DNA from: Diplosphaera chodatii
Lineage: Eukaryota; Chlorophyta; Trebouxiophyceae; Prasiolales; Stichococcaceae
Reading direction: 5' to 3'
Length of the DNA stretch: 64,000 nucleotides
Assembly (NCBI GenBank): GCA_032358165.1
Contig: JAALGY010000012.1
Span: 372,001-436,000, forward strand
Shown here: piece by piece, positions 4,988 through 49,385 of the stretch
How the letters are laid out: every line of letters starts with the position of its first letter
Numbering within the stretch: position 1 is the stretch's first letter
Notes under the pieces: model-generated
The model's input: only the letters and a program-made list of their open reading frames with translations
The model's database searches: none
What the model was told of the DNA's origin: nothing
Position numbers and translations under genes: made by a program

Positions 4988-5220
4988 GTTCATTGGACAC
5001 CGTTCAGGGACCGGGTTCGATCCCTGGCGGTGGCGGAAGTTTCGGGTCTAGTTCCGTGTGGGACCAACCCACCCCACCCTATGCAAGTGGTTGCTTCGGC
5101 AATCTGCCCTCCATGGTTTGTGTATATAAGTCGTTGAAAAACGCAATACACAAACAGCCTTCCGGTCAAAGGTCCTTTTCCATCGCTATTTGCACTTCCC
5201 TTACCGCTATCCATTCCATT
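4988..5220 (+). mobile_element. T-arm element, single full unit (233 bp)
   Basis: Flanked by a 7-bp direct repeat CCACACC (4981-4987 and 5221-5227); the other LINE-B copies read straight through. It contains CCGGGTTCGATCCCTGG (a 5-bp-stem tRNA T-arm with a perfect B-box) near its start and TATATAAG further down. It ends in the constant 3' sequence TTACCGCTATCCATTCC. No ORF. Confidence 0.8.
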
Positions 5221-5616
5221 CCACACCACACATATGTCAACCACTTGGGCGTCATCGTCGGCTGCGGCAGCGACGCTATCGACGCTCGCCAGCACAAGAT
5301 CAACTCCCGGATCGGCCTTATCGGCAAGGCGGTCCTGCAGTGGTCCAAGCACGCCATCTCCTTCTTTGGACGGGCGTACGTCGGCAAGCAGAACCTGCAG
5401 TCGCAGCTGGTGCACCTCCTCAGCTTCGACTCCCTCACAGCCACCCAACTGGCGAAGCTCAACACCCTCATCTACGGCTACATCAGTCGCAATCGCTACA
5501 ACACTGACCCCTCTCCGCCAACTGCAACCCGAAGCGACTTGTGTGCGGCCTCTCCCGACGAGCTGGTGGCGCTGGCGCCCCCTCCCTTGAGCTCTTCGCC
5601 ACCGCCCTGGCAGCGA

Positions 5617-5864
5617 CATCACCTCAGTGGCGGACTTTATGCAGCAGGATGCCGGGCAACTGGCAGCCTTTTTGCGGGTTTGTCATGATCATTGTGCAGA
5701 GTTGGAGGGGTGTACATCCAACCGGGATTGAGTGGAACCATTCTGTCAGCGGGGAGTGAACGGTTTTGGACACGACTCGTTGTGCATGTTGCTCTGGGTT
5801 ATTCCGCCAGAGCCTGTGGCTAGGCCAAAATGGCCCACCACCAGTATGTAATCAATGTCAAATG
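5617..5864 (+). mobile_element. LINE-A 3' end, 5'-truncated, 11-bp TSD
   Basis: The last about 30 ORF2 codons plus the 3' UTR of LINE-A. The duplicated target CCTGGCAGCGA stands at 5606-5616 and 5865-5875, inside LINE-B ORF2. Classical 5'-truncated insertion. Confidence 0.85.
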
Positions 5865-7190: not shown

Positions 7191-7994
7191 ATTTGCACTT
7201 CCCTTACCGCTATCCATTCATTGGACACCGTTCAGGGACCGGGTTCGATCCCTGGCGGTGGCGGAAGTTTCGGGTCTAGTTCCATGACATTGACATTGAT
7301 TACATACTGGTGGTGGGCCATTTTGGCCTAGCCACAGGCTCTGGCGGAAAAACCCAGAGCAACATGCACAACGAGTCGTGTACGAAACCGTTCACTCCCC
7401 GCTGACAGAATGGTTCCACTCAATCCCGGTTGGATGCACACCCCTCCAACTCTGCACATTGATCATGACAACCCCGCAAAAAGGCTGCCAGTTGCCCGGC
7501 ATCCTGCTGCATAAAGTCCGCCACTGATGTGATGTTGCTGTCCTCAAACAGCTCCGAATGCTGCACCCTCTGATCTACTAGGGCTGGACACCCCCAGACC
7601 ATATGCGCCTCATCATCCACCACGCCGCAGTTACACCGCTGACACAGCCGCTCTGCCCGCGGCAGCCGCTGCCACCTCCCTGTTTCCACCCCCAGCATGT
7701 GACTGCCCATGCGAAACTGTGCTAACCGCCGACGACCGGTCTTGGAGGCGACTGCCTGCAAGTAGCCGGCCATCTGGTAGTTGTCACTGTTCACAGGGCC
7801 CCTGACTCCCAGCCACTCACGCACTTTGCGCACTTTCCGTGTGGGACCAACCCACCCCACCCTATGCAAGTGGTTGCTTCGGCAATCTGCCCTCCATGGT
7901 TTGTGTATATAAGTCGTTGAAAAACGCAATACACAAACAGCCTTCCGGTCAAAGGTCCTTTTCCATCGCTATTTGCACTTCCCTTACCGCTATC
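7191..7994 (+). mobile_element. T-arm element with partial tandem unit, split by LINE-A
   Basis: Begins with about 30 bp of the unit's 3' end (ATTTGCACTTCCC...CTATCC), followed by a full unit; hence 1.1 units in tandem. It is interrupted at 7284-7834 by a minus-strand LINE-A end. It ends in the constant CTTACCGCTATCC. Total inserted length without the LINE-A is 249 bp. Confidence 0.75.
7284..7834 (-). mobile_element. LINE-A 3' fragment inside the T-arm element
   Basis: LINE-A 3' UTR and ORF2 C-terminus (stop at 7420) in reverse orientation, with a 4-bp repeat TTCC on either side (7280-7283, 7835-7838) inside the element's GTCTAGTTCCGTG sequence. Confidence 0.75.
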
Positions 7995-9247
7995 CACTGC
8001 CGCCGCCACCTCGCCCGCACGATCCTCCACTGACCCTTGCAACTCGGCCCACCCCGCCGACCACACAGCTCACTGGTCACCGACGACGAGCAGCCCGCCC
8101 CCCTACCACCTGCCCCCCACCACAACGCCGCCGCCTCCCCTCCCTTGTGCCGGATTGCGTCGTCCACGACCACGCCACACTGCCAGCCTGCCGTCGCCCC
8201 ACCAACTCCTGGCTGTACATGCCTCTCATCCTCGACGGCGTCCACATGCCACTCGCCGCCCGCCCTGACGCCCACTCTTTCCCCCGCCCGCCAGCCTTCG
8301 CTCAGCATGTGCAGGCACTCAGAGGAGTGTTCGCACGGCAACCTGTCCCCATTACACTCGACATCATCCGACACACGTACCACCTCGACGCCCACGCCCA
8401 CATCGCCGCCCACCACCAGGAACACCTCCTCGGCCTGGATGCACCACTTGGGCAGCGCATCGCCATGTACAGCTTGCAGCTGGTCAGAGACGCACTGGCA
8501 TCTCAGGCGGCTGCCATGCCCGACCCTCCGCCACCAACCACCACAGCCGGTCACTCAACGACCTCCTCCAGCGCACCCAGCCCTGCCATCACCACCGCCG
8601 CTGCCACCCGCAGCCGACGTCGCAACCGCAGTCCGCCTCGTACACACGCCTCCCCACTAAGCCAAGTGCTTCCGCCACCCCCACCTCTGCCGCCACCCCC
8701 GCCTCTGCCGCCTCCCCCACTTCAGCAGCCGGACGTCACGCCGTCCACGACAGCCTTGGCCCTTGCCCCACACCAACCCCCAGCGTGGGAAGTGTGCTTG
8801 CGTGCGGCTGGTGTCTGGCTCCCGCCGTACCACCCGCCGCCCCCGCACCCGTCTGATGCCCCAGGCACAGGACCTCCTCCGTCAATCGACGTCTCGGAGC
8901 AGTGGGAGGTTGACTCTGCCCACCGCTTCGTGCGCCGCCAGGGCGATGATCGACTCTACCGCGTGCGCTTCGACCACAGCCTCGCTGCCCATGACGACGC
9001 TGCCTCACTCCTCGACGCCCAGCCGCCCTGGCAACCCTGCCATCTTGTCATGTGGTCACCTCCCGCACACCGCGCGGCTGCTGGCGCAGCGCCATCGGCC
9101 GACAGGAACGACAGTGACGTGCCCGCTCACAAGAAGATGGATCGCCCCTACTTCCTTGCCGAGCTCGCCGATCTGACCATCGTCCCCGACATCTACGGCT
9201 AAGGCGAAGAAGACCGCAACCTCATGGAGTACGAGGTCTCCCTTGGA

Positions 9248-10633: not shown

Positions 10634-12298
10634 ATTGACATTGATTACATACTGGTGGTGGGCCATTTTGGCCTAGCCACAGGCTCTGGCGGATAAACCC
10701 AGAGCAACATGCACAACGAGTCGTGTCCGAAACCGTTCACTCCCCGCTGACAGATTGGTTCCACTCAATCCCGGTTGGATGTACACCCCTCCAACTCTGC
10801 ACAATGATCATGACAAACCCGCAAAAAGGCTGCCAGTTGCCCGGCATCCTGCTGCATAAAGTCGGCCACTGAGGTGATGTCGCTGTCCTGAAACAGCTCA
10901 GAATGCTGCACCCTCTGATCTACTAGAGCAGGACACCCCCAGACCATATGTGCCTCATCATCCACCACGCCGCAGCTACACCGCTGACACAGCCGCTCTG
11001 CCCGCGGCAGACGCTGCCACCTCCCTGTCTCCACCCCCATTCATTGGACATCGTGAGGGACTCGGTTCGATCCCTGACGGTGGCGGAAGTTTCGGGTCTA
11101 GTTCCGTGCGGGACCAACCCACCCCACCCTATGCAAGTGGTTGCCTCGGCAATCTGCCCTCCATTGTTTGTGTATATAAGTCGTTGAAAAACGCAATACA
11201 CAAACATCCTTCCGGTCAAAGGTTCTCTTTTCCATCGCTATTTGCAACTTCCCTTACCGCTTTCCATTCCAGCATGTGACTGCCCATCCGAAACTGTGCT
11301 AACCGCCGACGACCGGTCTTGGAGGCGACTGCCTGCAAGTAGCCGGCCAGCTGGTAGTTGTCACCGTTCACAGGGCCCCTGACTCCCAGCCACTCACGCA
11401 CTTTGCGCAAGTCGCTGCCATTCACAGCATCGAATGTGCGGCGCTGCAGGTGTGCACTGACAACCGAAGTGTCAATGCGCTGCGGCACGCCGTCAACGAT
11501 GGGTGACATGAAGTGCAGGAACGAGCACACCTGGGCAGCCCAGCATGCTGAGCTGGTCTTGCTGCGCCCCGGCCGGGTGGCCAGAGCACAGTTCTCCAGG
11601 AATGCCTGCTTGGTGAGGCGTGTGTCCGGCATTGCGACCAGCCGGTTCCAGAACCGGCAGATGGCCAGCGTTGCCGTGTGTGCCACCGGGAATCGCCCAA
11701 GCTCCCCCAACACCGCCACGTTGGGAGTGCCTGTACGCACTCCAAGAACAGACCGAAGAAACTTCCGATGGACAAGCTCACAAGTGTCCATGCCACTACC
11801 GCACAACGCCCCCGGTCCCCATGTTTCGACGCCATAAAGCATAACAGGACGTACTAGTGCATCGAACAAGTGTAGCTGCAGTGCTGGGTCATGTAAGCTC
11901 AGGTCATGGCAACGATGCTGCAATGCAAGTGCGGCGCGCTGGGCGGAGGCCGCTCTGCCGATGCTAGCGGCAGCAAAAGAACTACGACTGGAAATGTCAA
12001 CCCCCAAATATGTAAAGGAGTCCAGCACTTCGATGGGAGCATGCATGTAGGTGAGAACCGGTGGTGCAGCAGCCTGGGCTCCGTACACCACGACCTTAGT
12101 CTTCTTCACGTTGACGGTGAGGCGCCACCGCTTGCAGTACGACTCCAGCAGGTCGAGCTGCGCCTGCAGGCCGCGTACGGATGTGGACACCAGGTCCAGA
12201 TCATCTGCATAGAAGAGGGCAGGTGCCTGCACACCACACAGGGTGGGCAGGTCCAGGTCCGCGCCGGCAGCCTCCAGCTCCGCTTGGAAATCCCAGGC
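10634..12298 (-). mobile_element. LINE-A ORF2 3' half and 3' UTR (in R1)
   Basis: Covers ORF2 from just before the FYADD motif (DFQAELEAAG) through the thumb, the C-terminal finger and the stop (10765), then the 3' UTR. The reading frame is broken by the T-arm element at 11040-11268. At its 5' edge the 13-bp sequence CCCAGGCCTTCTG is directly repeated (about 12290-12315), a likely junction duplication. Confidence 0.8.
11040..11268 (+). mobile_element. T-arm element, subfamily b, single unit, unique to R1
   Basis: 229 bp with a 3-bp repeat CCA on both sides. It carries the diagnostic subfamily-b changes shared with 36661-36951: ACTCGGTTCGATCCCTGACGG instead of the usual T-arm sequence, TTGCAACTT, and CGCTTTCC at the 3' end. 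R2 and R3 lack it, so it inserted after the unit was duplicated (or was lost by conversion). Confidence 0.8.
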
Positions 12299-22884: not shown

Positions 22885-24555
22885 ATGACGATCTGCACGC
22901 GTTCGTTCTCTGACGTTGTCTCCTCAACAGATGCGGCGATGGACTGGGCGACGGTTGCGTCACTGAGTGACCTGGCTGCACTCCGGAAGATCGCCAAACG
23001 GTACAACGTGTCTGTTCGCAGGGGCGCCAACGCAGAAACGGTTCGTCGGCAGCTACACGCCGTCATGGAGCCAATGGACGGCATTGCGGACGCTGCACTT
23101 GCAGAGTTTTCGGTGTCGGACTCCAGCGCCGATTTGAGTCAGCAGTCCTGCACGCACAACGCGGCACCCATCAGCGAGGCCTATACGGCGCCTGCTGCTC
23201 AGCAGCGGCCACCCAGGGGCCCCCTGCGTGGACTTGCATGCGTGCATGCAACTGCAGATGATGCTGACTTGGATCACGTGACTGCCCAGACTGCTCAGGG
23301 TGATTCCAGTGCAGGCTGTGCAGTCCCACAGCCCTCGTCCAACGCTGCCATTGCGCCATACTTGCGCAGGATTGCGTCTCTTGAGGCCGAGGTGCAGCAG
23401 CTGAAGCTTGAGGCAGCAGCACATCAGCAAGCGGCACTGCAGCAGCAATGCCAGCCAGTCAAGCTTGTCATACATGTGCAGCAGCCACAGCCCAACAGCA
23501 GCAGCCAGGAGCAGCAGATGGCACCGGACAGGCAGCATGCAGCTCCAGAGCAGCATGCAGCACCCGCGCCAGCAGCTCCCAGCAGCCAGCCTGCAACATC
23601 AGCAACGGCATCAGCAGCAGCATTGCCACAGCAGCCAACAGCAACCAGCCGGCCCAGCATTGATCCACAGCAGCAGCCGCGGCTCCCAGCACGCAGCAGC
23701 AGCACTGGATCAGCAGCATGGGTCTTCAGCGGCTTGGATTTTGCAGCAGGCAGCAGCAGCGATGTTGCCGCAGCGGCAGTACAGGGTTTCTGCACCAGCA
23801 AGCTTTGCTTGCAAGATGCTGCACAGCACATCACCGTGATGCGTGTCAGCAAGCAGAAGACCGGTCTGGCTGTTGTCAGCATTGACGATGGTGCTTTTGT
23901 GCGCAGGATGTGCAGCGCGAAAGCGCGCCTTCCCCGCACTTGCGGTGTTTCAGTTTATGAGAGTGTGGCACCGCAGCGTCGGGACGCAGCGGCACAGCTG
24001 CGCAGGAGCCAGCACCATGCAGCCCAGGACGCAGCTCCGGTGGCGAACGCACGCCGCGCAGCCGCAGATGCTATGCAATTTGCACAGCATCACCTCGCGC
24101 CGCGCCGGCAGCGGCGGCCAAGCGCATTTGCACTTCCCTTACCGCTATCCATTCATTGGACACCGTTCAGGGACCGGGTTCGATCCCTGGCGGTGGCGGA
24201 AGTTTCGGGTCTAGTTCCGTGTGGGACCAACCCACCCCACCCTATGCAAGTGGTTGCTTCGGCAATCTGCCCTCCATGGTTTGTGTATATAAGTCGTTGA
24301 AAAACGCAATACACAAACAGCCTTCCGGTCAAAGGTCCTTTTCCATCGCTATTTGCACTTCCCTTACCGCTATCCAGCGCTCTTGGCCCTCACCCTGCTG
24401 TTGCTCCCCTTGGCATTGCATCACGCTTTGCTGTGCTGCCTGTTGAGCCCACTTCTCACACATCACCTGGTGGCCCCACTTTGGCTGAGGGAACATCACC
24501 CTCTCCAGCAAAGGCGCCAGCCACCCCCAACCCCACCCCCAACCATGTCTGCTAG
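22885..24555 (+). pseudogene. LINE-A ORF1 (coiled-coil RNA-binding-type protein), interrupted by a T-arm element
   Basis: ATG at 22885. Removing the element and one AGCG target copy (24125-24379, 255 bp) gives a continuous frame ending at TAG 24553-24555. Visible: an N-terminal helical region, a short coiled coil (RRIASLEAEVQQLKLEA, residues about 155-175), a long Gln/Ala/Ser-rich low-complexity tract, then a region (residues about 290-350) with beta-strand-like pattern (HITVMRVSKQKTGLAVVSID) and a basic Ala/Arg-rich end. LINE ORF1 proteins bind the element RNA; that role is inferred from position and coiled coil, as I see no CCHC knuckle. The TAG is in frame with ORF2 and no AUG precedes the ORF2 endonuclease, so an ORF1-ORF2 fusion by readthrough is possible. 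Confidence 0.65.
24125..24375 (+). mobile_element. T-arm element with partial tandem unit, in LINE-A ORF1
   Basis: 251 bp between AGCG repeats (24121-24124, 24376-24379). Begins with about 30 bp of unit 3' end, then a full unit. B-box GGTTCGATCCC at about 24178, TATATAAG at about 24287. The inserted length of 255 keeps the ORF1 frame. Confidence 0.8.
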
Positions 24556-27500
24556 GGGTGTTGGGGCCGGGCTGCGCCCGGCGCAATCCGGTCCCCTAAC
24601 AGCGCCCTGTCTGTGCTGAGCCTGAACGTCCAGGGGTGGCTGACCAGAGATGCATCTGCGCTATCGCAGGTCATCAAGGCGGCTGACTTCGACGTGCTGG
24701 CCTTCAGCGAGACGTGGGCGCGGGAGGGGACCGACGCGCCGGAGCTGGACGGCTTCACATCTGTCCTTCACCTGCCGCGGAGCCGGCGTCAGCAGCGTGG
24801 CGGTGCACGTGGCGGCCTCGCTGTCTACGTCGCCGACAAGCTTGCATCATCGGTGACACACTTGTCAACTGGACCCCAAAACTGCTATGCTGTTTTGAGG
24901 TTTGACAAGGCTGTCGGTCAGGAGGAGGATGCTTACATGATTCCATGCTACATACCACCCGAGGGAAGCCCATCCTTTGATGGCAAGGGCCCTGCGGTCT
25001 GGGAGGCGTTACGTGAGGAGGTGAGCGCCACCTGCCGCATGGGGCATGTGTTTGTTGTTGGAGACCTGAACGCACGCACCAGCACCTGCCCGGACTTCCC
25101 GGGATCTGTCGATCACCCTGTCACAGAGGAGTTCCTGCCCTCCACCGCCCCTCCTGTGCAGTCACAGCGGCACAGCCGCGACAACAGGGAGCGGCCCAAC
25201 AGGTGGGGCAGGGCTCTGCTTGACATGTGTGTTGAGACATCCGTCAGGATTGCTAACGGTCGTGTTTCAGGAGATGAGGAGGGACAGGTCACTTTTGTTA
25301 GCCAAAGTCAGGTGGGCAGCAGCCTGATTGACTATGTGCTTGCAAGTGCTGATGCATTCCCTTTGATTCATTCCCTAACAGTACTCCCCGCTCCTGAGTC
25401 GGACCATGCAGCCTTGCATCTGCTCATCAAGAGGACCGCCGCCGCTCAGCAGCCGCTCCCACGTCGCCAGCGCCGCCGCCATCAGCAGCAGCAACCGCAG
25501 CAGCCCACGACCCAGCAGCCCCTGCGCCTCGGCGCAGCGCAGCTGGAAGTGTGGCAGCAGCGCCTGCAGCAGCCTGATGCGGCAGCCCAACTGGTCGACA
25601 TTGCAGCGGCAGCAGATGCCGCCCTGGTACCCGATGACATGCATGCTGTGGGCATGCAGTTCGATCAGCTCATTAAGACCACGCAGGCTGAGGTGGCTGC
25701 AACAGCGCCGGCCGCCAAGGGGCGGCGGCGGGACCGCAACGCTGTGCCTCGCTGGTGGGATGCTGACCTGGCACGCGGACGCCGCGCAGCGCGGCAAGCC
25801 GCGCGGCGCGACCCGCAGTCACCGGCTGCTCGCGCGCTCCGCCAGCAGTACCAGCACCTGCTACGCCGCACCCAGCGCCAGTGGACCCGCAGTCAGGCTC
25901 TCGCCCTCACTGAACTGGCTCGATCAACCAACTCCAAAAAGTTCTGGCAAAAGTTCAAACCCGCTAAGAAGCGGTCGTGTCCCATAGCAGATGATGTGAT
26001 GCTTGACTCCTTCCGGAAACTGCTGGATGCCCCCACAGTTTCATCAAGCACTGCAGGTACCTCGGGTAGTGGTGCTGCGCCACCTTTTGCCGACGGGAGC
26101 GAGCTCAACTCGCCCTTCACAGCCGGCGCCGTGCAACAGGCTATAGGAGCCCTGCGCGGAGGCAAAGCAACGGTGGGCCTGCTCAAATTGGATGCTTTAT
26201 CTGTTGCAGCGGCGCAGCTTGCACCTTGTCTTGCATCTGTTTTTAACGCTTGTCAAAGGGTGGCAGCGTTGCCAAGGGGCTGGGCTCTGTGCGGCATCAC
26301 GCCGATCCACAAGGGGGGCGACACATCCGATCCGGGTAATTACCGTGGCATTGCTGTTGGCTCTTTATTGGCAAAGCTATATGCTTGCATGCTTAACGAA
26401 AAGCTTATGAGGTGGACCGAGCAGCACCAGCTGCGCGCACGCGGACAGGCGGGCTTCCGCAAGGACCACCGCACCACCGATCAAACCTTCGTCCTTCGCA
26501 CCCTCATCGAGAAGGCCAAGGCAGATAAGCAGCCTCTATACTCTTGCTTTGTCGATTTCAAGAAAGCATACGACACTGTACCTCGTGATTTGCTTTGGGA
26601 GAAGCTGCAGCGGATTGGGGTGCATGGGGAGTTTCTGAGGGGCGTGCAGGCACTGTATGCTGATGTGCCCATGGCACTGCAGTTTGAAGGGGGAATGTCC
26701 GACACATTTCAGAGCACTCTGGGGGTTAAGCAGGGATGTCCACTATCTCCAACCCTTTTCGGGATTTACATTGACGATTTCCAAGCGGAGCTGGAGGCTG
26801 CCGGCGCGGACCTGGACCTGCCCACCCTATGTGGTGTGCAGGCACCTGCCCTCTTCTATGCAGATGATCTGGACCTGGTGTCCACATCCGTACGCGGCCT
26901 GCAGGCGGTAATGGATAGCGGTAAGGGAAGTGCAAATAGCGATGGAAAAGGACCTTTGACCGGAAGGCTGTTTGTGTATTGCGTTTTTCAACGACTTATA
27001 TACACAAACCATGGAGGGCAGATTGCCGAAGCAACCACTTGCATAGGGTGGGGTGGGTTGGTCCCACACGGAACTAGACCCGAAACTTCCGCCACCGCCA
27101 GGGATCGAACCCGGTCCCTGAACGGTGTCCAATGAATGGATAGCGGTAAGGGAAGTGCAAATAGCGATGGAAAAGGACCTTTGACCGGAAGGCTGTTTGT
27201 GTATTGCGTTTTTCAACGACTTATATACACAAACCATGGAGGGCAGATTGCCGAAGCAACCACGCCGCAGGCGCAGCTCGACCTGCTGGAGTCGTACTGC
27301 AAGCGGTGGCGCCTCACCGTCAACGTGAAGAAGACTAAGGTCGTGGTGTACGGAGCCCAGGCTGCTGCACCACCGGTTCTCACCTACATGCATGCTCCCA
27401 TCGAAGTGCTGGACTCGTTTACATATTTGGGGGTTGACATCTCCAGTCGTAGTTCTTTTGCTGCCGCTAGCATCGGCAGAGCGGCCTCCGCCCAGCGCGC

Positions 27501-28437
27501 CGCACTTGCATTGCAGCATCGTTGCCATGACCTGAGTTTGCATGACCCAGCACTGCAGCTACACTTGTTCGATGCACTAGTACGTCCTGTTATGCTTTAT
27601 GGTGTCGAAACATGGGGTCCTGGGGCGTTGTGCGGTAGTGGCATGGACACTTGTGAGCTTGTCCATCGGAAGTTTCTTCGGTCTGTTCTTGGAGTGCGTA
27701 CAGGCACTCCCAACGTGGCGGTGTTGGGGGAGCTTGGGCGATTCCCGGTGGCACACACGGCAACGCTGGCCATCTGCCGGTTCTGGAACCGGCTGGTCGC
27801 AATGCCGGACACACGCCTCACCAAGCAGGCATTCCTGGAGAACTGTGCTCTGGCCACCCAGCCGGGGCGCAGCAAGACCAGCTCAGCATGCTGGGCTGCC
27901 CAGGTGTGCTCGTTCCTGCACTTCATGTCACCCATCGTTGACGGCGTGCCGCAGCGCATTGACACTTCGGTTGTCAGTGCACACCTGCAGCGCCACACAT
28001 TCGATGCTGTGAATGGCAGCGACTTGCGCAAAGTGCGTGAGTGGCTGGGAGTCAGGGGCCCTGTGAACGGTGACAACTACCAGCTGGCCGGCTACTTGCA
28101 GGCAGTCGCCTCCAAGACCGGTCGTCGGCGGTTAGCACAGTTTCGGATGGGCAGTCACATGCTGGGGGTGGAGACAGGGAGGTGGCAGCGTCTGCCGCGG
28201 GCAGAGCGGCTGTGTCAGCGGTGTAGCTGCGGCGTGGTGGATGATGAGGCGCACATGGTCTGGGGGTGTCCAGCTCTAGTAGATCAGAGGGTGCAGCATT
28301 ATGAGCTGTTTCAGGACAGCGACATCACCTCAGTGGCGGACTTTATGCAGCAAGATGCCGGGCAACTGGCAGCCTTTTTGCGGGTTTGTCATGATCATTG
28401 TGCAGAGTTGGAGGGGTGTACATCCAACCGGGCTTGA
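24556..28437 (+). pseudogene. LINE-A ORF2: APE endonuclease, reverse transcriptase, Cys/His finger
   Basis: Frame runs from the codon after the ORF1 TAG; the first AUG is only at 24937, inside the endonuclease. APE motifs, counting from 24613: LSLNVQGW (2-9), SETW (32-35), GDLNAR (150-155), DYVLAS (240-245), SDH (263-265), which supply the metal-binding and catalytic Asn/Asp/His of this nuclease. RT motifs: NYRGIAVGS (about 576), FVDFKKAYDTV (about 646), GVKQGCPLSPTLFGIYID (about 705) and the catalytic FYADD (about 747). After the T-arm insertion (26908-27266) come the thumb region and a C-terminal finger CQRC-SCG ... EAHMVWGC. The protein would nick target DNA and copy element RNA. The insertion brings in a TGA at about 27133, so the product is truncated unless removed. 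Confidence 0.85.
26908..27266 (-). mobile_element. T-arm element dimer (1.6 units) in LINE-A ORF2
   Basis: Reverse orientation, 359 bp, between 7-bp repeats GCAGGCG (26901-26907, 27267-27273). One full unit (about 26912-27134) followed by a partial unit stopping in GAAGCAACCAC; the variable edge is the element's 5' side. The net insertion of 366 bp keeps the host frame, and its edges can be read as GTAATG...CCGCAG. Confidence 0.85.
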
Positions 28438-28569
28438 GTGGAACCATCCTGTCAGCGGGGAGTGAACGGTTTTGGACACGACTCGTTGTGCATGTTGCTC
28501 TGGGTTATTCCGCCAGAGCCTGTGGCTAGGCCAAAATGGCCCACCACCAGTATGTAATCAATGTCAATG
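28438..28569 (+). promoter_or_regulatory. LINE-A 3' UTR with hairpin and hexamer tail
   Basis: About 130 bp after the ORF2 stop. Near the end GGCCAAAATGGCC can form a 5-bp stem with an AAA loop, followed by ACCAGTATGTAATCAATGTC and one or more AATGTC repeats. The same end is found in every LINE-A copy in the window. A short tandem-repeat tail rather than poly(A), and a nearby hairpin, are typical of RT recognition ends in some LINE clades. Confidence 0.6.
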
Positions 28570-29470
28570 ACAAGTGTCCATGCCACTACCGCACAACGCC
28601 CCCGGTCCCCATGTTTCGACGCCATAAAGCATAACAGGACGTACTAGTGCATCGAACAAGTGTAGCTGCAGTGCTGGGTCATCCAAGCTCAGGTCATGGC
28701 AACGATGCTGCAATGCAAGTGCGGCGCGCTGGGCGGAGGCCGCTCTGCCGATGCTAGCGGCAGCAAAAGAACTACGACTGGAAATGTCAACCCCCAAATA
28801 TGTAAAGGAGTCCAGCACTTCGATGGGAGCATGCATGTAGGTGAGAACCGGTGGTGCAGCAGCCTGGGCTCCGTACACCACGACCTTAGTCTTCTTCACG
28901 TTGACGGTGAGGCGCCACCGCTTGCAGTACGACTCCAGCAGGTCGAGCTGCGCCTGCAGGCCGCGTACGGATGTGGACACCAGGTCCAGATCATCTGCAT
29001 AGAAGAGGGCAGGTGCCTGCACACCACACAGGGTGGGCAGGTCCAGGTCCGCGCCGGCAGCCTCCAGCTCCGCTTGGAAATCGTCAATGTAAATCCCGAA
29101 AAGGGTTGGAGATAGTGGACATCCCTGCTTAACCCCCAGAGTGCTCTGAAATGTGTCGGACATTCCCCCCTCAAACTGCAGTGCCATGGGCACATCAGCA
29201 TACAGTGCCTGCACGCCCCTCAGAAACTCCCCATGCACCCCAATCCGCTGCAGCTTCTCCCAAAGCAAATCACGAGGTACAGTGTCGTATGCTTTCTTGA
29301 AATCGACAAAGCAAGAGTATAGAGGCTGCTTATCTGCCTTGGCCTTCTCAATGAGGGTGCGAACGACGAAGGTCTGATCGGTGGTGCGGTGGTCCTTGCG
29401 GAAGCCCGCTTGTCCGCGTGCGCGCAGCTGGTGCTGCTCGGTCCACCTCATAAGCTTTTCGTTAAGCATG
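28570..29470 (-). mobile_element. continuation of the fourth-unit LINE-A (RT domain part)
   Basis: Continues the LINE-A broken at 22489. It covers ORF2 from the CDTS end back through FYADDLDL, GVKQGCPLSP, FVDFKKAYDTV to LMRWTEQHQLRARGQ at 29470. Longer than the LINE-A in R1-R3, which stops at DFQAELEA. Confidence 0.8.
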
Positions 29471-30892: not shown

Positions 30893-31009
30893 TTCTGGGC
30901 TCCGCGGGTGGCCGCTGCTAGGTGCTGTCATGCTACTAAGGTCTTGGTCTTGCTCTTGCTCTTGTTTCTTGATCTTGGCCCAGTGCGGACTGGGCAGGTG
31001 AGGTACGGG

Positions 31010-31665: not shown

Positions 31666-32511
31666 GTGCGTCGGCGTGAGTGTGGTGGGCATTCACCGTA
31701 GTCGTGCGAGACAGTGCTTCAGATGAGTTGGAGGCGCGGTGGGGAGGCAGCCGTCGGGGGTGGTTGCTGCGATGTTTGCGGCGGGGGTCCAGGGCGGGAC
31801 TCAGGTTGGGGCTGAGGTTGGCGCTGAGGCTGTGGACGTGATTGTGACTGTGGCTGTGGACGTACTGCTGGCAGCGGCACTGGGTGAGTGGCCGTCCAGC
31901 GGACGACAAGGTCTCGGCCGTTCATGCTGCAGAGGCCGCTCGCGATCCAGATCCTTTTGAAGTCGGTCATGGGGTTGTTGTCGTCGTCAATCTGCTGGCC
32001 TCGCTGAGCTCCAGTCATGTGCGCGTCGCACTGCTGTGCTAGCTCCGTGGGGGACGTGTAGGCGGCAGTGAACTCGGTGCGCATCGACTGCACGGCGGAG
32101 TGGAGGGTGGCGGCGGCGATAGATGTAGATGAGGGTGTGGGGCCACCATTGTGGACAGCACAGTGGGCGTCCCAGGCCTTCTGTAGGTAGGTGACCCGAA
32201 GCCGGGTCCACAGCTCAAGGTCCAGGCGGCCAGGGTGCCAGGCAGTGGGGTCGCCCGCGATGATGACGTCAGGAGTGGTTGGGGGTGTGTGGCCGCCGTC
32301 GATGGCAGCCCACAAGTCGCAGAGCCACTGGAGGGCAGGGCGTGTGAGCGGGCAGTGGAGGAGGACGTGGGTGGTGTTGGCGACGGTGGTGGGCTGCAGG
32401 GTGGCGGGGTTGTTGACGAGCGGGGTACGGCAAGCCGGCCAGCGGCAGCAGGCCCTCTGCATGGGGGTGTCACCTGACATGTCGACAGCGGCGTGCTTAT
32501 AGCGGCAGTAG

Positions 32512-32775
32512 TCCTTTTCCATCGCTATTTGCACTTCCCTTACCGCTATCCATTCATTGGACACCGTTCAGGGACCGGGTTCGATCCCTGGCGGTGGCGG
32601 AAGTTTCGGGTCTAGTTCCGTGTGGGACCAACCCACCCCACCCTATGCAAGTGGTTGCTTCGGCAATCTGCCCTCCATGGTTTGTGTATATAAGTCGTTG
32701 AAAAACGCAATACACAAACAGCCTTCCGGTCAAAGGTCCTTTTCCATCGCTATTTGCACTTCCCTTACCGCTATC
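32512..32775 (+). mobile_element. T-arm element, 1.2 units, in LINE-B ORF2
   Basis: 264 bp between CAGTAG repeats (32506-32511, 32776-32781). Starts inside the 3' end of one unit (TCCTTTTCCATCGC) and continues through a full unit. Both ends therefore share about 40 bp as direct terminal repeats. Confidence 0.8.
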
Positions 32776-33225
32776 CAGTAGGTGAGGAAGGATGGTGTGC
32801 GAAGTTGGCAGTGAAGGGCTCGCCAGGCGACGGCGACATCGGCCTTGCGGATGTTGGTGCCGCAGAGCTGTTCCCAGCAGCGGCGGTACTTGGAGGCGAC
32901 GGCAGGGGTGGTGTTGTCTTGAGGAGGATGGCGTTGTTGGTGGGGCCGGCGAGCGTGTGCTTGGGGCCGCTGCTGTGGGTCGCGGGCCCGTGTCGCCATA
33001 GCGTGCACGCTTGGTTGGGGCCCTGTGATGGCGATGAAGCATGGGAGACGGTGTGGAGCTGCTGTTGGCGAGGGCGAGGCAGGGCGTGGGGAACTAGTTG
33101 TGGGCTGGTCGGCAGGGGGCGGGGAGTCCGGCTGAGTCGGCTGAGTGGGCGTCGGAGAAGTGGAGTGGGGTGCAGCAGCTGCTGTTATCGCCAGTGGTGC
33201 CTGCGGGGAGGTGCGTGTAACCCAG

Positions 33226-33454
33226 GCTGGATAGCGGTAAGGGAAGTGCAAATAGCGATGGCAAAGGACCTTTGACCGGAAGGCTGTTTATGTATTGCGT
33301 TTTTCAACGACTTATATACACAAACCATGGAGGGCAGATTGCCGAAGCAACCACTTGCATAGGGTGGGGTGGGTTGGTCCCACACGAAACTAGACCCGAA
33401 ACTTCCGCCACCACCAGGGATCGAACCCGGTCCCTGAACGGTGTCCAATGAATG
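33226..33454 (-). mobile_element. T-arm element, single unit, in LINE-B ORF2
   Basis: About 229 bp starting GCTGGATAGCGGTAAGG and ending GTCCAATGAATG. The host sequence CCCAGTCTGGG is split here with loss of one T. Two private changes: GGCAAAGG and CACCACCAGGG in the T-arm stem. Confidence 0.7.
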
Positions 33455-36506: not shown

Positions 36507-36660
36507 GTCGAAGGCCTTGGCGAAGTCGAGGAAGAGCATGGCTCCATCGGTGTCATGGGTGGTGAGGAGGTCGGCGAGCTCGGTGTGGTTGAGGATGTTG
36601 TCGCCAATCCAGCGGCCGGGGAGGAAGCCAGTCTGTGTGGGGTCGATGACGGGTCCAAGG

Positions 36661-36951
36661 AAAGCGGTAAGGGAAGTTGCAAATAGCGATGGAAAAGAGA
36701 ACCTTTGACCGGAAGGCTGTTTGTGTATTGCGTTTTTCAACGACTTATATACACAAACAATGGAGGGCAGATTGCCGAGGCAACCACTTGCATAGGGTGG
36801 GGTGGGTTGGTCCCGCACGGAACTAGACCCGAAACTTCCGCCACCGTCAGGGATCGAACCGAGTCCCTCACGATGTCCAATGAATGGAAAGCGGTAAGGG
36901 AAGTTGCAAATAGCGATGGAAAAGAGAACCTTTGACCGGAAGGCTGAAGGC
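36661..36951 (-). mobile_element. T-arm element, subfamily b, 1.25 units, in LINE-B ORF2
   Basis: 291 bp between CCAAGG repeats (36655-36660, 36952-36957). The about 58-bp terminal stretch AAAGCGGTAAGGGAAGTTGC...AAGGCTG is present at both ends. Compared with the unoccupied site at 50045-50060 in the other LINE-B copy. Confidence 0.85.
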
Positions 36952-41095: not shown

Positions 41096-43060
41096 GGCTG
41101 GGCGAGGTGCAGGATGGCCGTGGTGGTGGGCGTCGGTGTAGGTGTTGGATGAGGGGCGATGGCGGCGATGGCGGCCGCTGCTGCGGCCATGTGTGGGCAA
41201 GGGCCTAGCTGCTGGGGATTGGGGGGCGGTGGGCGTGGCGGGAAGCATGCTGAAGGGGTGGGGACGGAGGGTTGTGGCGTGGGCGGCAGGCAAGTGCTGG
41301 GCAGCAGTGCTGGGCAGCACTCAGAGCAAGGTGCAGCAGGTGACAGGCTGAGGGTAGTGGCGGATGCTGGAGGGAGGCAGGCTGGTGATGGCGGCGGCAG
41401 CAGGCGGTGGGCAGCACCCAGATCAGGGTGCAGCAGGCGGCAGGCTGAGGGTGGTGTGGACGGTGTTGAAGACGGCAGGCTGGTGTTGGCGGCGGCGGCA
41501 GGCGGCGGGCAGCACCCAGGTCAGGGTGCAGCAGGTGGCAGGCCGAGGGTAGTGGCGGATGCTGGAGGGAGGCAGGCTGGTGATGGCGGCGGCAGCAGGC
41601 GGTGGGCAGCACCCAGATCAGGGTGCAGCAGGCGGCAGGCTGAGGGTGTGTGGATGGTGGTGAAGACGGCAGGCTGGTGATGGCGGCGGCGGCAGGCGGT
41701 GGGCAGCACTCAGACCAGGGTGCAGCAGGTGGCAGGCTTCGGGTGTGTGGATGGTGGTGACGACGGCAGGCTGGCGTTGGCGGCGGCGGCAGGCGGCACT
41801 CAGATCAAGGTGCAGCAGGTGGCAGGCTGTGGGTGGTGTGGATGGTGATGAGGATGGCAGGCTGGTGTTGGCGGCGGCGGCAGGCGGCGGGCGGCACTCA
41901 GACCAGGGTGCAGCAGGTGGCAGGCTGTGGGTGGTGTGGATGGTGGTGCGGATGGCAGGCTGGTGTTGGCGGCGGCGGCAGGCAGCGGGCAGCACTCAGA
42001 CCAGGGTGCAGCAGGTGGCAGGCTGAGGGTGGTGTGGATGGTGGTGAAGATGGCAGGCTGGTGTTGGCGGCGGCGGCAGGCGGCGGGCGGCACTCAGACG
42101 AGGGTGCAGCAGATGGCAGGCTGAGGGTGTGTGGATGGTGGTGACGACGGCAGGCTGGCGTTGGCGGCGGCGGCAGGCGGCACTCAGATCAAGGTGCAGC
42201 AGGTGGCAGGCTGTGGGTGGTGTGGATGGTGATGAGGATGGCAGGCTGGTGTTGGCGGCGGCGGCAGGCGGCGGGCGGCACTCAGACCAGGGTGCAGCAG
42301 GTGGCAGGCTGAGGGTGGTGTGGATGGTGGCGAAGACGGCAGGCTGGTGTTGGCGGCGGCGGCAGGCAGCGGGCAGCACTCAGACCAGGGTGCAGCAGGT
42401 GGCAGGCTGAGGGTGGTGTGGATGGTGGTGAAGATGGCAGGCTGGTGGTGGCGGCGGCGGCAGGCGGTGGGCAGCACTCAGACGAGGGTGCAGCAGATGG
42501 CAGGCTGAGGGTGTGTGGATGGTGGTGACGACGGCAGGCTGGCGTTGGCGGCGGCGGCAGGCGGCGGGCGGCACTCAGACCAGGGTGCAGCGAGTGGCAG
42601 GCGGCGGGTGTTGATGGTGATGGCAGGCGGTGGGAGGCTGGTGAGAGGGGCTGACGGGGGAGCTGGCACTGCTGATGTGGGCAGTGCAGAACGCCGAGGG
42701 GCAGGTGGCACGTGCAGGCACGTGCCGAGGACGGCGATCGAAAGGGGGAGCTGGGAAACTGGGTGGCGGACTGCTGACGTGGCAGTAGCAGCACGTGCGA
42801 GCACGTGCCGCTGGCTGTGTGGATGACGGGGACGGTGGGGGCCTTCAGTGGGCGCCTGCAGCAAAGCGGAGGACAACCGACAGCAGGAAAGCCCAGCGAC
42901 GGGCGATGGACGTTGCCGATGCCGGCGCGCAACGCGACTGACGCACAGCTGAAGCCGGTGCGGGTGGCTGGCCGGGGTGCGGTTGGTATTCCCCGTCGGA
43001 GTGGGAATCGTTAGCTATGTAGGCTGCAAAGCAAAGGATTCCCGCGATGGGGATTATCAC
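41096..43060 (-). promoter_or_regulatory. LINE-B 5' UTR region
   Basis: About 2 kb upstream of ORF1. Most of it is a minisatellite (41280-42610). Beyond that, 42611-43060 has two imperfect palindromes with CACGTG boxes (GCACGTGCAGGCACGTGCC at 42707-42726; CACGTGCGAGCACGTGCC at about 42792-42809) and no gene. CACGTG is the E-box/G-box core; a regulatory role is only a guess. Confidence 0.5.
41280..42610 (-). repeat. LINE-B 5' UTR minisatellite, about 96-98-bp unit, about 13 units
   Basis: CAGGCTGGTGTTGGCGGC recurs at 41858, 41956 and 42054, that is every 98 bp, with units also containing GGGTGCAGCAGGTGGCAGGC. A higher-order pattern is visible: a block of four units at about 41740-42125 repeats at about 42126-42510. 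Tandem monomers in the 5' UTR are known in other LINEs, where they act as promoter units; inferred here. Confidence 0.75.
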
Positions 43061-45340: not shown

Positions 45341-46725
45341 ACCAGTGAGCTGTGTGGTCGGCGGGGTGGGCCGAGTTGCAAGGGTCAGTGGAGGATCGTG
45401 CGGGCGAGGTGGCGGCGGCAGTGGGGTGCTTGCCAAGGGTGCTGCGGCTGAGGCGTCTGCGGCGGGTGCAGGCTCACGTGGGCTGGTCGTCGTGGGCGGT
45501 GCTGTCGCTGGAGGGTCCGGACGGTGTGTGCCTGGCTGGCGAGGTGTATGGGGTGTGGCTGGTGGCACTGGCAGCGGAACGCTGCGAGTCGACTGCCGAG
45601 GCGGCAGTGGGGCGACGGGAAGGGCTGCCATGTCCGCCTGGTTGGTGTTCGCCTCGAGCGCTAGCCGCATGGTGGCATCAAGGGAGGCACGGATGACGGC
45701 AAGGTCCCCGCGTGCGACGGCAGCGAACTGGGGGTCGCCCTCGATGGCTGCCCGCAAGTCGTCAAGGGACCAGAGGCCAAGGGATGCAGCTCCGATGAGG
45801 TCGGCGTCGTGGGCGATAGGGTCAGCGATGGCACGTCGGCTGAAGAACAGGCGATCTCGCATGACGAGGCGGTGAGTGTGCTGCTGCTCTGGGTCCAGGT
45901 TGCGCCCAATCCCGATGCGGTGAGCAGCCGCGACGCCGTCGCGCAGGCGTGGCGGGAGCGATGGCACAGTGGCGATGTCGAGAGTGGATGCCATGATGGC
46001 AGGTCCGAGGCCCCAACGGTGAAGGGCTCGGGCTGGCGCGTCGGTGTGGGGGATGGAGGATGCCGGAGCTCGCATGAGGTGAAAGCCGTGAATGGATTTC
46101 CACACTGCTGGCGTCGGCTGGAACAGGCGGAACGCTCGCTTCGCTGCCAGGGCGGTGGCGAAGAGCTCAAGGGAGGGGGCGCCAGCGCCACCAGCTCGTC
46201 GGGAGAGGCCGCACACAAGTCGCTTCGGGTTGCAGTTGGCGGAGAGGGGTCGGTGTTGTAGCGATTGCAACTGATGTAGCCGTAGATGAGGGTGTTGAGC
46301 TTCGCCAGTTGGGTGGCTGTGAGGGAGTCGAAGCTGAGGAGGTGCACCAGCTGCGACTGCAGGTTCTGCTTGCCGACGTACGCCCGTCCAAAGAAGGAGA
46401 TGGCGTGCTTGGACCACTGCAGGACCGCCTTGCCGATAAGGCCGATCCGGGAGTTGATCTTGTGCTGGCGAGCGTCGATAGCGTCGCTGCCGCAGCCGAC
46501 GATGACGCCCAAGTGGTTGACATATGTGTGGTGTGGGGTCTATGTGATGCCGGTGGCGGCACTGGTGTGGGCGGGTTGCCGGGCAGCCGAGCCGAACAGC
46601 AGGGACTTGGTCTTGGTGGGGTTGAGCTGGGCGCCCGAGGCGGCAGCGAAGGCGGCAACAGGTCCTTCGATGATCTTGTCGCAGTCCGCTGCGGAGGCGG
46701 CGTGGATGGTGGTGTCGTCGGCGTG
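45341..46725 (-). pseudogene. LINE-B ORF2 fragment, from the RT active site to the Pro-rich linker
   Basis: Minus-strand. Reads HADDTTIHAASAADCDK through the thumb region to TPPTTQLTG. Contains a +/-1 frameshift at about 46250 (GAGAGGGGTCGG versus GAGAGGGGGTCGG at 35735) and a TAG after TGI at about 46539 where the copy at 36030 has TAC. Clearly non-functional. Confidence 0.75.
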
Positions 46726-47154
46726 CACACGGCAACGCTGGCCATCTGCCGGTTCTGGAATCGGCTGGTCGCGATGCCGGACACACGCCTCACCAAGCAG
46801 GCATTCCTGGAGAACTGTGCTCTGGCCACCCGGCCGGGGCGCAGCAAGACCAGCTCAGCATGCTGGGCTGCCCAGGTGTGCTCGTTCCTGCACTTCATGT
46901 CACCCATCGTTGACGGCGTGCCGCAGCGCATTGACACTTCGGTTGTCAGTGCACACCTGCAGCGCCGCACATTCGATGCTGTGAATGGCAACGACTTGCG
47001 CAAAGTGCGTGAGTGGCTGGGAGTCAGGGGCCCTGTGAACGGTGACAACTACCAGCTGGCCGGCTACTTGCAGGCAGTCGCCTCCAAGACCGGTCGTCGG
47101 CGGTTAGCACAGTTTCGGATGGGCAGTCACATGCTGGGGGTGGAGACAGGGAGG
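46726..47154 (+). mobile_element. LINE-A ORF2 fragment (C-terminal part)
   Basis: Plus-strand, from HTATLAICRFWNRL to MLGVETGR, fused at 47154/47155 to a more upstream LINE-A segment. The order of segments is non-collinear, so this is a junction between two copies. Confidence 0.75.
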
Positions 47155-49385
47155 AAGCACTGCAGGTACCTCGGGTAGTGGTGCTGCGCCACCTTTTGCC
47201 GACGGGAGCGAGCTCAACTCGCCCTTCACAGCCGGCGCCGTGCAACAGGCTATAGGAGCCCTGCGCGGAGGCAAAGCAACGGTGGGCCTGCTCAAATTGG
47301 ATGCTTTATCTGTTGCAGCGGCGCAGCTTGCACCTTGTCTTGCATCTGTTTTTAACGCTTGTCAAAGGGTGGCAGCGTTGCCAAGGGGCTGGGCTCTGTG
47401 CGGCATCACGCCGATTCACAAGGGGGGCGACACATCCGATCCGGGTAATTACCGTGGCATTGCTGTTGGCTCTTTATTGGCAAAGCTGTATGCTTGCATG
47501 CTTAACGAAAAGCTTATGAGGTGGACCGAGCAGCACCAGCTGCGCGCACGCGGACAAGCGGGCTTCCGCAAGGACCACCGCACCACCGATCAGACCTTCG
47601 TCGTTCGCACCCTCATTGAGAAGGCCAAGGCAGATAAGCAGCCTCTATACTCTTGCTTTGTCGATTTCAAGAAAGCATACGACACTGTACCTCGTGATTT
47701 GCTTTGGGAGAGGCTGCAGCGGATTGGGGTGCATGGGGAGTTTCTGAGGGGCGTGCAGGCACTGTATGCTGATGTGCCCATGGCACTGCAGTTTGAGGGG
47801 GGAATGTCCGACACATTTCAGAGCACTCTGGGGGTTAAGCAGGGATGTCCACTATCTCCAACCCTTTTCGGGATTTACATTGGATGGATAGCGGTAAGGG
47901 AAGTGCAAATAGCGATGGAAAAGGACCTTTGACCGGAAGGCTGTTTGTTGACATTGACGATTTCCAAGCGGAGCTGGAGGCTGCCGGCGCGGACCTGGAC
48001 CTGCCCACCCTGTGTGGTGTGCAGGCACCTGCCCTCTTCTATGCAGATGATCTGGACCTGGTGTCCACATCCGTACGCGGCCTGCAGGCGCAGCTCGACC
48101 TGCTGGAGTCGTACTGCAAACGCTGGCGCCTCACCGTCAACGTGAAGAAGACTAAGGTCGTGGTGTACGCAGCCCAGGCTGCGGCACCACCGGTTCTCAC
48201 CTACATGCATGCTCCCATCGAAGTGCTGGACTCGTTTACATATTTGGGGGTTGACATCTCCAGTCGTAGTTCTTTTGCTGCCGCTAGCATCGGCAGAGCG
48301 GCCTCCGCCCAGCGCGCCGCACTTGCATTGCAGCATCGTTGCCATGACCTGAGCTTGCATGACCCAGCACTGCAGCTGCACTTGTTCGATGCACTAGTAC
48401 GTCCTGTTATGCTTTATGGTGTCGAAACATGGGGACCGGGGGCGCTGTGCGGTAGTGGCATGGACACTTGTGAGCTTGTCCATCGGAAGTTTCTTCGGTC
48501 TGTTCTTGGAGTGCGTACAGGCACTCCCAACGTGGCGGTGTTGGGGGAGCTTGGGCGATTCCCGGTGGCACACACGGCAACGCTGGCCATCTGCCGGTTC
48601 TGGAATCGGCTGGTCGCGATGCCGGACACACGCCTCACCAAGCAGGCATTCCTGGAGAACTGTGCTCTGGCCACCCGGCCGGGGCGCAGCAAGACCAGCT
48701 CAGCATGCTGGGCTGCCCAGGTGTGCTCGTTCCTGCACTTCATGTCACCCATCGTTGACGGCGTGCCGCAGCGCATTGACACTTCGGTTGTCAGTGCACA
48801 CCTGCAGCGCCGCACATTCGATGCTGTGAATGGCAGCGACCTGCGCAAAGTGCGTGAGTGGCTGGGAGTCAGGGGCCCTGTGAACGGTGACAACTACCAG
48901 CTGGCCGGCTACTTGCAGGCAGTCGCCTCCAAGACCGGTCGTCGGCGGTTAGCACAGTTTCGGATGGGCAGTCACATGCTGGGGGTGGAAACAGGGAGGT
49001 GGCAGCGTCTGCCGCGGGCAGAGCGGCTGTGTCAGCGGTGTAGCTGCGGCGTGGTGGATGATGAGGCGCATATGGTCTGGGGTTGTCCAGCTCTAGTAGA
49101 TCAGAGGGTGCAGCATTCTGAGCTGTTTGAGGACAGCGACATCACCTCAGTGGCGGACTTTATGCAGCAAGATGCCGGGCAACTGGCAGCCTTTTTGCGG
49201 GTTTGTCATGATCATTGTGCGGAGTTGGAGGGGTGTACATCCAACCGGGCTTGAGTGGAACCATCCTGTCAGCGGGGAGTGAACGGTTTCGGACACGACT
49301 CGTTGTGCATGTTGCTCTGGGTTATTCCGCCAGAGCCTGTGGCTAGGCCAAAATGGCCCACCACCAGTATGTAATCAATGTCAAA
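47155..49385 (+). mobile_element. LINE-A copy from pre-RT region to 3' end
   Basis: Starts at STAGTSGSGAAPPFADG (a few residues before the RT) and runs through NYRGIAVGS, FVDFKKAYDTV, GVKQGCPLSP, FYADD and the finger to the stop at 49252-49254, then the 3' UTR. A 68-bp T-arm fragment at 47883-47950 shifts the frame. Apart from that, this is the second most complete LINE-A RT in the window. Confidence 0.8.
47883..47950 (-). mobile_element. T-arm element, 68-bp solo 3' end
   Basis: Reverse orientation; between ACATTG repeats (47877-47882, 47951-47956). Contains only the constant 3' portion (GGATGGATAGCGGTAAGG ... AAGGCTGTTTGTTG). Shows that 5'-truncated insertions occur and that the 3' 65 bp suffice. 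Confidence 0.8.

Follow-up and report, generated by a model that had tools for sequence, protein, structure and literature searches.

Our results indicate that the genome of Diplosphaera chodatii harbors a non-autonomous, non-coding retroelement that resides mostly in centromere-like clusters of LINEs and that we judge to be retrozyme-like. From the lengths of its copies and from its internal junctions we infer a circular template, and we lean toward a mode of propagation in which a small circular RNA would be copied once around, target-primed by a LINE. The window, the whole stretch of 64,000 nucleotides that was analyzed (contig JAALGY010000012.1, positions 372,001 to 436,000), contains the following features.

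4988..5220, + strand: A copy, 1.0 unit, followed by tail ATTCCATT; flanked by TSD CCACACC
7191..7995, + strand: A copy, 1.1 units, starting at unit position 201; split at ~7287-7834 by a LINE piece
~7287-7834, within the A copy 7191..7995: LINE 3' piece, inverted and 5'-truncated, with GGAA flanks (LINE strand)
11040..11268, + strand: B copy, 1.0 unit
24126..24375, + strand: A copy, 1.11 units; TSD AGCGC
24147..24159, + strand: predicted hairpin TCCA-TTCAT-TGGA at the boundary between units (counted from unit start 24151)
24151-24375, + strand: reference unit (A), within the copy 24126..24375
24177..24187, + strand: B-box-like GGTTCGATCCC, unit 27-37, within a long predicted hairpin
24286..24293, + strand: TATATAAG of the reference unit, unit 136-143
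24556..28574, + strand: host LINE copy, Exo_endo_phos plus RVT_1, split by the element at 26913-27263; TCAATG-type 3' tail; likely mobilizer
26913..27263, - strand: A copy, 1.56 units, within the LINE reading frame
32511..32776, + strand: A copy, 1.18 units; TSD CAGTAG
33228..33454, - strand: A copy, 1.0 unit
36659..36946, - strand: B copy, 1.27 units
47886..47948, - strand: A copy, 63 bp, starting at unit position 163, close to the proposed transcript start

A sequence-only reading of the window had proposed one compact retroelement family with nine insertions in two subfamilies, and all nine copies of the unit were indeed recovered where it had placed them; BLAST with a dimer query found no tenth copy in the window. 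The non-coding unit measures 225 bp in subfamily A and 227 bp in subfamily B, the two being about 93% alike. The B-box GGTTCGATCCC begins at unit position 27 in A, and TATATAAG begins at position 136 in A and 135 in B. The nine window copies also agree with that reading in their constant 3' end (CGCTATCC in A, CGCTTTCC in B), their varying 5' ends and their 1.x units: five exceed one unit, at 1.11 to 1.56 units (7191, 24126, 26913, 32511, and 36659), three comprise about 1.0 unit (4988, 11040, and 33228), and one is 63 bp long (47886). The short TSDs it described hold up, the flanks matching over 5 bp or more in 60 of 143 cleaned copies versus 8.5% when flanks are re-paired; a TSD of at least 3 bp is absent from 24% of cleaned copies versus 43% in the null. 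De-duplication reduced 168 hits to 149, and leaving out 6 that run into another unit gave the 143 clean ends. Loci chosen among the longest (20), by the B-box (18), or by an internal junction (40) stand outside all proportions given here. No description of such an element was found in open PMC papers.

The exact unit end, TCCCTTACCGCTWTCC, occurs 473 times genome-wide versus 0 times for the reversed control, which excludes chance as the source of the repetition; because this is a count of unit ends, copies longer than 1.0 unit may count twice. Among the unit ends listed, 98 of 100 lie in one block per contig (five contigs), amid EN+RT LINEs. Most of the 151 RVT_1 matches listed, from the best 150 of 318 candidates scored, are likewise concentrated in a single block on each contig, though not without exceptions; the contigs are not known chromosomes. 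This layout resembles that of ZeppL centromeres.

The host LINE in the window encodes an AP endonuclease and a reverse transcriptase in its reading frames, and the resident LINE is the likely mobilizer of the element. Exact target positions are common to both in 8 of 123 cases, where the null has a mean of 1.36 and reached this value in 0 of 300 runs. Sharing amounts to 10 versus 3.9 in the null at ±1 (P = 0.02) and 14 versus 6.2 at ±2 (P = 0.01). Within ±4 bp it is not significant (14 of 123 versus a null of 9.7, sd 3.2), and since the exact-position test was run after this result was known, the link to the LINE is of moderate strength. The first base of the target is C in 46%, A in 33%, and G in 5% (without the shared-CC shift); an earlier count of 64 C in 97 assigns the shared CC to the target and is therefore inflated. 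The sequence-only reading had suggested looking for an autonomous partner with a common 3' end. The resident LINE does not share its 3' end with the element: the two tails show no homology (ATTCC or ATCC in the element, TCAATG type in the LINE) and every CCATTCCAT in the five blocks is an element end. Some LINEs do not require a shared 3' end.

Kinship with Penelope-like elements (PLEs) had also been suggested, and the 1.x tandem layout of the element is indeed reminiscent of that shown by PLEs (PMC7229834, in the part available). However, a GIY-YIG search of the 85.6 Mb genome gave a single match, on C55, at 27.7 bits and just above the cut-off, in a search that exon-split genes can escape. 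No hammerhead was found in the unit with Rfam, and exact target positions are shared with the resident AP-endonuclease LINE. We consider it extremely improbable that the element is a PLE or a non-autonomous derivative of one.

The distribution of copy lengths bears on the template. The contiguous-block set contained 62 copies, of which four were dropped: three composite B entries on C7, and a copy that owes its 5' end to the insertion of a LINE. The 58 kept comprise 16 copies of at most 130 bp, 2 of 131-218 bp, 26 of 219-235 bp, and 14 of 241-351 bp, with none longer than 351 bp. Over the same 120-nt stretch, stops occurred in 14 of 14 second passes versus 16 of 58 first passes (Fisher P = 5e-7); with nothing dropped, the values are 14 of 17 and 16 of 62 (P = 3.6e-5). 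LINE copies in the same blocks are often at least 450 bp long (49 of 85) and rarely 219-235 bp (1 of 85), lengths that are estimates with a ceiling of 3,500, which points to the template, and not the enzyme, as what limits the element. This length pattern and the junctions and outer 3' ends described below are what would be expected if a circular RNA were copied by target priming, a route proposed for retrozymes. The decay among long copies is not quite smooth, which counts against a once-around model: their starts form a small hump at 116-135 (10 of 82) and are nearly absent from 136-155 (1 of 82).

If a multi-unit master locus gave rise to a linear tandem RNA whose copies were truncated at the 5' end, the exact junctions would have been inherited from the DNA. 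This mechanism nevertheless seems decidedly unlikely, as it predicts neither the peak at 1.0 unit nor the change in stop rate between passes, and copies of at least 450 bp should be as common as they are for the LINE, whereas they number 0 of the 58 kept and 3 of 62 with composites. No A array above 1.67 units was seen among the candidates scored and the junctions listed, the longest A copy measuring 373 bp (1.67 units; best 40 of 326 candidates scored). In B, composite loci reach about 2.1-2.2 units; C7 has three such entries, of which two are alike, and C37 has one. We read them as nested insertions. The variant at B position 169 agrees between units in all 3 informative simple copies, but among three composite loci the units disagree in 2.

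Internal junctions number 107 genome-wide. Of the 100 listed, some of which are segmental duplicates and so not all independent, 98 are exact and 2 are point variants; with 0-25 bases allowed, 0 of these 100 have an extra tail, and 0 are A/B chimeras. Unlike these invariant junctions, outer 3' ends carry slipped tails, with ATTCC or ATCC in 93 of 143; that 0 external ends begin with ATTCAT is partly by construction, as the 6 run-on hits were left out. At outer 3' ends the final copied base is unit position 4, which sits in the loop of the predicted boundary hairpin. A paired-variant test on 49 copies gave 1 variant common to both units, 1 confined to the full unit, and 19 confined to the partial unit, of which 14 fall at the outer edge of one copy, where the alignment probably enters the flank; the A copies are too uniform for this test to decide. 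For a monomer to be released by cleavage, a locus would have to contain two complete boundaries. None was seen: the 100 junctions listed (of 107) include no pair on the same strand within 300 bp of each other, and this observation counts against the model.

R2-type enzymes are capable of template jumping, in which the reverse transcriptase leaves the 5' end of one RNA for the 3' end of another. End-to-end jumping between linear monomer RNAs would explain the peak at 1.0 unit, and the CCATTC carried by both unit ends could make such a jump seamless. Jumps onto tailed or otherwise different RNAs would, however, be expected to produce tail repeats and A/B chimeras, and neither occurs in the 100 listed junctions; A and B may have been active at different times and never together, which weakens the argument from chimeras. 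A second template should moreover be copied as well as the first, against stops in 14 of 14 (14 of 17) versus 16 of 58 (16 of 62). We therefore regard this mechanism as fairly unlikely.

The short copies offer a hint of where transcription begins. Of the 16 short copies, 7 form a cluster at 62-67 nt (P = 9e-6 under a crude uniform null), and since 0 of 14 second-pass copies measure 287-292, it is confined to the first pass. In a larger set, 7 of 24 short copies start at 160-165 versus 5 of 88 longer copies (P = 0.0035), the start hypothesis having been framed after two window copies near that position had been seen. The cluster probably marks a transcript start below TATATAAG.

tRNA-derived SINEs are short, non-coding, LINE-dependent elements with TSDs and a B-box. 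The element shares these properties, its LINE dependence being putative, and it differs in having no A-box that could be seen by reading, in carrying TTTT and TATA inside the unit, and in its invariant unit junctions. An ordinary SINE transcribed by Pol III from the B-box would accord with GGTTCGATCCC in both reference units, with the TSDs, and with the position of the dominant 5'-end group (unit 216 to 6), 21-36 nt upstream of the B-box. This origin is highly improbable, as ARAGORN calls no tRNA in the window, TTTT lies at unit 189, upstream of the 3' end, the tail is unlike that of the LINE, and the 1.x junctions would be left unexplained.

The earlier proposal of a tRNA T-arm with a B-box stands as far as the motif is concerned; a conserved tRNA part is not supported. 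A tRNA-like T-stem is possible in A, where the match is weak (mascRNA-like, 19.9 bits, E = 0.15, against a gathering score of 42.5); two of its five pairs are broken in B, as read from the A/B alignment, and an alternative hairpin across the same stretch is predicted in both. A conserved tRNA-mimic T-arm was thus rejected. Folding z values are -2.3 (A) and -2.0 (B), and -1.1 for the 60-nt hairpin piece by itself. In line with the earlier reading, Rfam scans of the window (E ≤ 1) and of a single copy each of A and B (E ≤ 10) found no hammerhead, and no Rfam ribozyme of any kind was found in these two copies.

Taken together, these features are consistent with the following cycle. A TATA box within the unit would direct an RNA start about 23-28 nt past its first T, at about unit 159-166, and a 225-nt monomer would be freed and circularized at the boundary, which is predicted to lie in the loop of the hairpin UCCA-UUCAU-UGGA. 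The resident LINE, through its endonuclease and reverse transcriptase, would nick the target, whose 3' G may pair with the boundary C, in keeping with the observed C bias, so that copying would begin there; occasional slippage at the start could give the ATTCC or ATCC tails. After one lap of the putative circle, copying would mostly stop within a few bases, as the length pattern suggests, or displace the first strand for tens of bases before stopping, giving 1.0 to 1.67 units. Linear transcripts primed at the first boundary may yield the 62-67-bp copies. More tentatively, the predicted three-way junction of the element, which places the boundary in a hairpin loop, could be an undescribed self-cleaving motif or a substrate of tRNA-type cleavage and ligation; the element would then be a hammerhead-free circular-RNA retroelement that feeds the centromere through rolling target-primed copying by a centromeric LINE.

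As far as the available parts of the cited papers go, circular RNA has been proposed as the template of new retrozyme copies (PMC4918200, PMC7229834). The non-LTR retrozymes of metazoans have non-coding units of ~170-400 nt in tandem, TSDs when present, and circular RNA, with mobilization by LINEs or PLEs proposed (PMC7229834). The element is like them in its short, non-coding 1.x/tandem units with TSDs and unlike them in that they carry type I hammerheads, that those of the coral studied range from dimers to 62-mers whereas the A copies seen here reach at most 1.67 units (PMC7229834), and that most of its listed copies lie in algal centromere-like LINE clusters. Plant LTR retrozymes have a promoter within the repeat (PMC9695139), and the length of cDNA from their circular template is proposed to vary with processivity (PMC4918200, PMC11722881); both properties may apply to the element. 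They differ in their two LTRs with type III hammerheads, their PBS and PPT, their mobilization by Ty3/gypsy, and their larger size (PMC4918200, PMC11722881). Zepp/ZeppL LINEs form highly localized clusters of nested 5'-truncated insertions at putative centromeres (PMC8226300). The host LINE looks like them in its clustering and its AP endonuclease and reverse transcriptase; Zepp and ZeppL are themselves LINEs, and the available part of PMC8226300 mentions no non-autonomous partner.

Beyond the first reading, our analysis adds centromere-like confinement, once-around lengths, invariant internal junctions, a first-pass-only cluster at 62-67 nt, and the predicted boundary hairpin. The genome itself would serve as the readout, through a stop rate that jumps after one lap and a closure point that does not vary. 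The element also offers a testable case for a new motif of RNA cleavage or closure. If confirmed, the model would establish hammerhead-free retrotransposition of circular RNA by way of a LINE, together with a partner element that contributes to building the centromere-like clusters of an alga.

All nine insertions proposed in the sequence-only reading are present, and they form the complete set for the window. The unit of this noncoding element measures 225 bp in subfamily A and 227 bp in subfamily B. Since mean BLAST identity to the subfamily's own reference is 99.5% in A (n = 43) and 98.5% in B (n = 19), both subfamilies look recent, with A the younger.

The lengths of the copies suggest that the element's templates end, or are blocked, once around. 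The five contiguous centromere-like blocks, on contigs C1, C7, C8, C10, and C13, contained 62 cleaned copies, of which 58 were kept; those removed are one copy interrupted by a LINE and three entries that are composite. Sixteen measure at most 130 bp, 2 measure 131 to 218 bp, 26 measure 219 to 235 bp, 14 measure 241 to 351 bp, and none is longer. Long copies cross the stretch of the template from unit position 215 to 96 twice, and stops within it account for 16/58 copies on the first pass and 14/14 on the second (P = 5e-7; for the full set of 62, 16/62 versus 14/17, P = 3.6e-5). In the same blocks, 49 of 85 copies of the resident LINE reach at least 450 bp, and this, together with the stop pattern, indicates that the limit lies in the element's own templates. 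In a larger series of 82 copies above 236 bp, chosen for length, numbers fall as the extra sequence grows from about 10 to about 150 bases; starts at 116 to 135 form a slight hump (10), and a single start lies at 136 to 155. A circular RNA template would explain the sharp onset of the stops, because the enzyme would run into the first strand that it had made. With a linear RNA template, the 5' ends would have to be scattered in exactly the observed manner.

Among the short copies of the block set, 7/16 have lengths of 62 to 67 nt, corresponding to starts at about 159 to 164. A start near 165 had been predicted after two window copies near 165 had been seen; the first base of TATATAAG is unit position 136 in A. 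None of the 14 second-pass copies falls at the equivalent 287 to 292 (one lies at 286), and in a larger set, starts at 160 to 165 occur in 7/24 short versus 5/88 longer copies (P = 0.0035). Because the cluster is confined to the first pass, a putative RNA 5' end accounts for it better than a pause site would. Pol III read-through is disfavored by the TTTT at unit position 189.

Internal junctions, where a unit end meets a unit start, were searched with 0 to 25 bases of any kind allowed between the two and with A/B pairing free. Of the 100 junctions listed, 98 are exact and 2 carry a single substitution; none contains a tail repeat, and none is an A/B chimera. Some are segmental duplicates (e.g., on C22), and independent events are therefore fewer than those listed; the fetched, de-duplicated copies contain 65 A-A and 19 B-B junctions. 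Exact, nonchimeric junctions speak against jumps from one RNA molecule to another, provided that the two subfamilies were at some time active simultaneously. A variant at position 169 of B is concordant in three informative simple 1.x-unit copies and discordant in two of three composite loci (about 2.1 to 2.2 units); we read the composite loci as probable nested insertions. No locus with two full boundaries was seen among the matches listed. Monomers may be released from a lost or unassembled master, by cleavage of another kind, or through RNA-to-RNA copying, which is reported for plant retrozymes (PMC11722881).

In the predicted circular fold of both A and B, the boundary lies in the loop of a small hairpin (UCCA-UUCAU-UGGA), adjoined by a long hairpin that carries the B-box-like sequence. 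A 95-nt piece is predicted to close with the stem ACUUCC/GGAAGU in both subfamilies; in A, upstream ACCGC would replace the usual partner of the long hairpin's lower strand. Stability z scores of this piece are -2.3 and -2.0, with 7/200 shuffles equally stable in each subfamily. Alignment and fold, read by eye, show two pairs of the long hairpin switched in B to other standard pairs and one lost. Support for the predicted fold is modest and comes from two subfamilies only. A tRNA T-arm had been described in every unit; A can form the T-stem, but B cannot.

Tails were read after CGCT[A/T]TCC at 143 cleaned 3' ends: ATTCC (64), ATTCCATTCC or longer (14), ATCC (15), A (23), AT (11), ATT (4), ATTC (3), and other (9). 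In the five blocks, each occurrence of CCATTCCAT is an element end. The first target base at 123 sites is C in 46%, A in 33%, T in 17%, and G in 5%, against a background of 36% C and 26% G. The tails and the C bias suggest that the 3' end of the target pairs with C at the template end and then slips by the CATTC period, in a telomerase-like stutter. The LINE's own 3' end in the five blocks has a tail with a variable number of TCAATG-type repeats. Target site duplications (TSDs) matching over at least 5 bp flank 60/143 copies (8.5% in a re-paired null); since 34/143 have no match of at least 3 bp, either part of the boundaries are placed wrongly or not every insertion made a duplication.

The genome comprises 85.6 Mb in 55 contigs; the window is C10:372001-436000, and its GC content is 61%. 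The genome has 56 matches to chlorophyll a/b-binding genes, as befits a photosynthetic host, and these genes, the GC content, and the block layout suggest a green alga. Light-harvesting genes are paired, with near-equal scores, across C10/C37, C26/C27, C17/C45, C9/C31, C14/C24, and C25/C41, a pattern that a diploid or hybrid assembly would show. A 16-mer of the element's 3' end occurs 473 times (control, 0), a number of unit ends and not of copies. Those listed, 100 in all, fall on contigs C1, C7, C8, C10, and C13, and 98 lie in a single block per contig; one on C1 and one on C10 lie outside, the first being a 1.0-unit copy. The second, far from the cluster, is a piece of about 19 nt of the element's 3' end with a tail (C10:1313250-1313850), which sits in an apparent proline-rich repeat-coding stretch. 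Internal junctions (100 of 107 listed) are found on 26 contigs, in a single block on each.

LINE frames in the window contain Exo_endo_phos and RVT_1 domains. Most of the 151 RVT_1 matches listed are clustered likewise, largely in the element's blocks; outside are the five top-scoring matches (C9:2207, C15:15469, C33:38008, C34:15431, and C26:4328801) and a few others. The first four of these, the best matches, are compact (432 to 483 bp), lie less than 40 kb from the contig start and outside LINE clusters, and perhaps represent another reverse transcriptase family. Zepp and ZeppL centromeres are described as a single LINE cluster per chromosome (PMC8226300; PMC11005252). The layout here, seen on contigs, is similar, and we call the blocks centromere-like on the basis of this LINE layout. 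Window positions 12762-22561, with equal-length open reading frames at 12762, 16334, and 19906, appear to hold a stretch of about 3,572 bp, LINE sequence included, three times in tandem. LINE reverse transcriptase matches at C30:745849-773444 are spaced nearly regularly (mostly 3.5 kb, then 1.9 kb) and look like LINE pieces arrayed in tandem. Sequence of the 92-bp satellite type holds several LINE and element insertions. The satellite arrays of the window are as follows.

141-488, 92-bp satellite, dispersed array
1253-2385, 92-bp satellite, dispersed array
30993-31661, 92-bp satellite, dispersed array
50821-51100, 92-bp satellite, dispersed array
51249-51503, 92-bp satellite, dispersed array
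54149-54551, 92-bp satellite, dispersed array
41311-42610, distinct array of about 98 bp, higher-order period 384 bp

GIY-YIG has one match in the genome (C55:11277-11501; 27.7 bits), inside an open frame of 194 amino acids. Intact copies of the resident LINE exist, since a homologue of its frame, 1,152 amino acids long and 98% identical over 89% of the query, carries both domains. Element and LINE share the exact target position at 8/123 sites (null mean, 1.36, with 8 reached in 0/300), but at a tolerance of ±4 bp they share 14 versus 9.7 expected, which is not significant. We suggest, with moderate confidence, that the element is mobilized by the resident LINE. For circular retrozyme RNA, Cervera and colleagues proposed that the length of the cDNAs varies with processivity (PMC4918200); the D. 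chodatii element has a processivity-like length pattern of this kind, here with a fixed start point.
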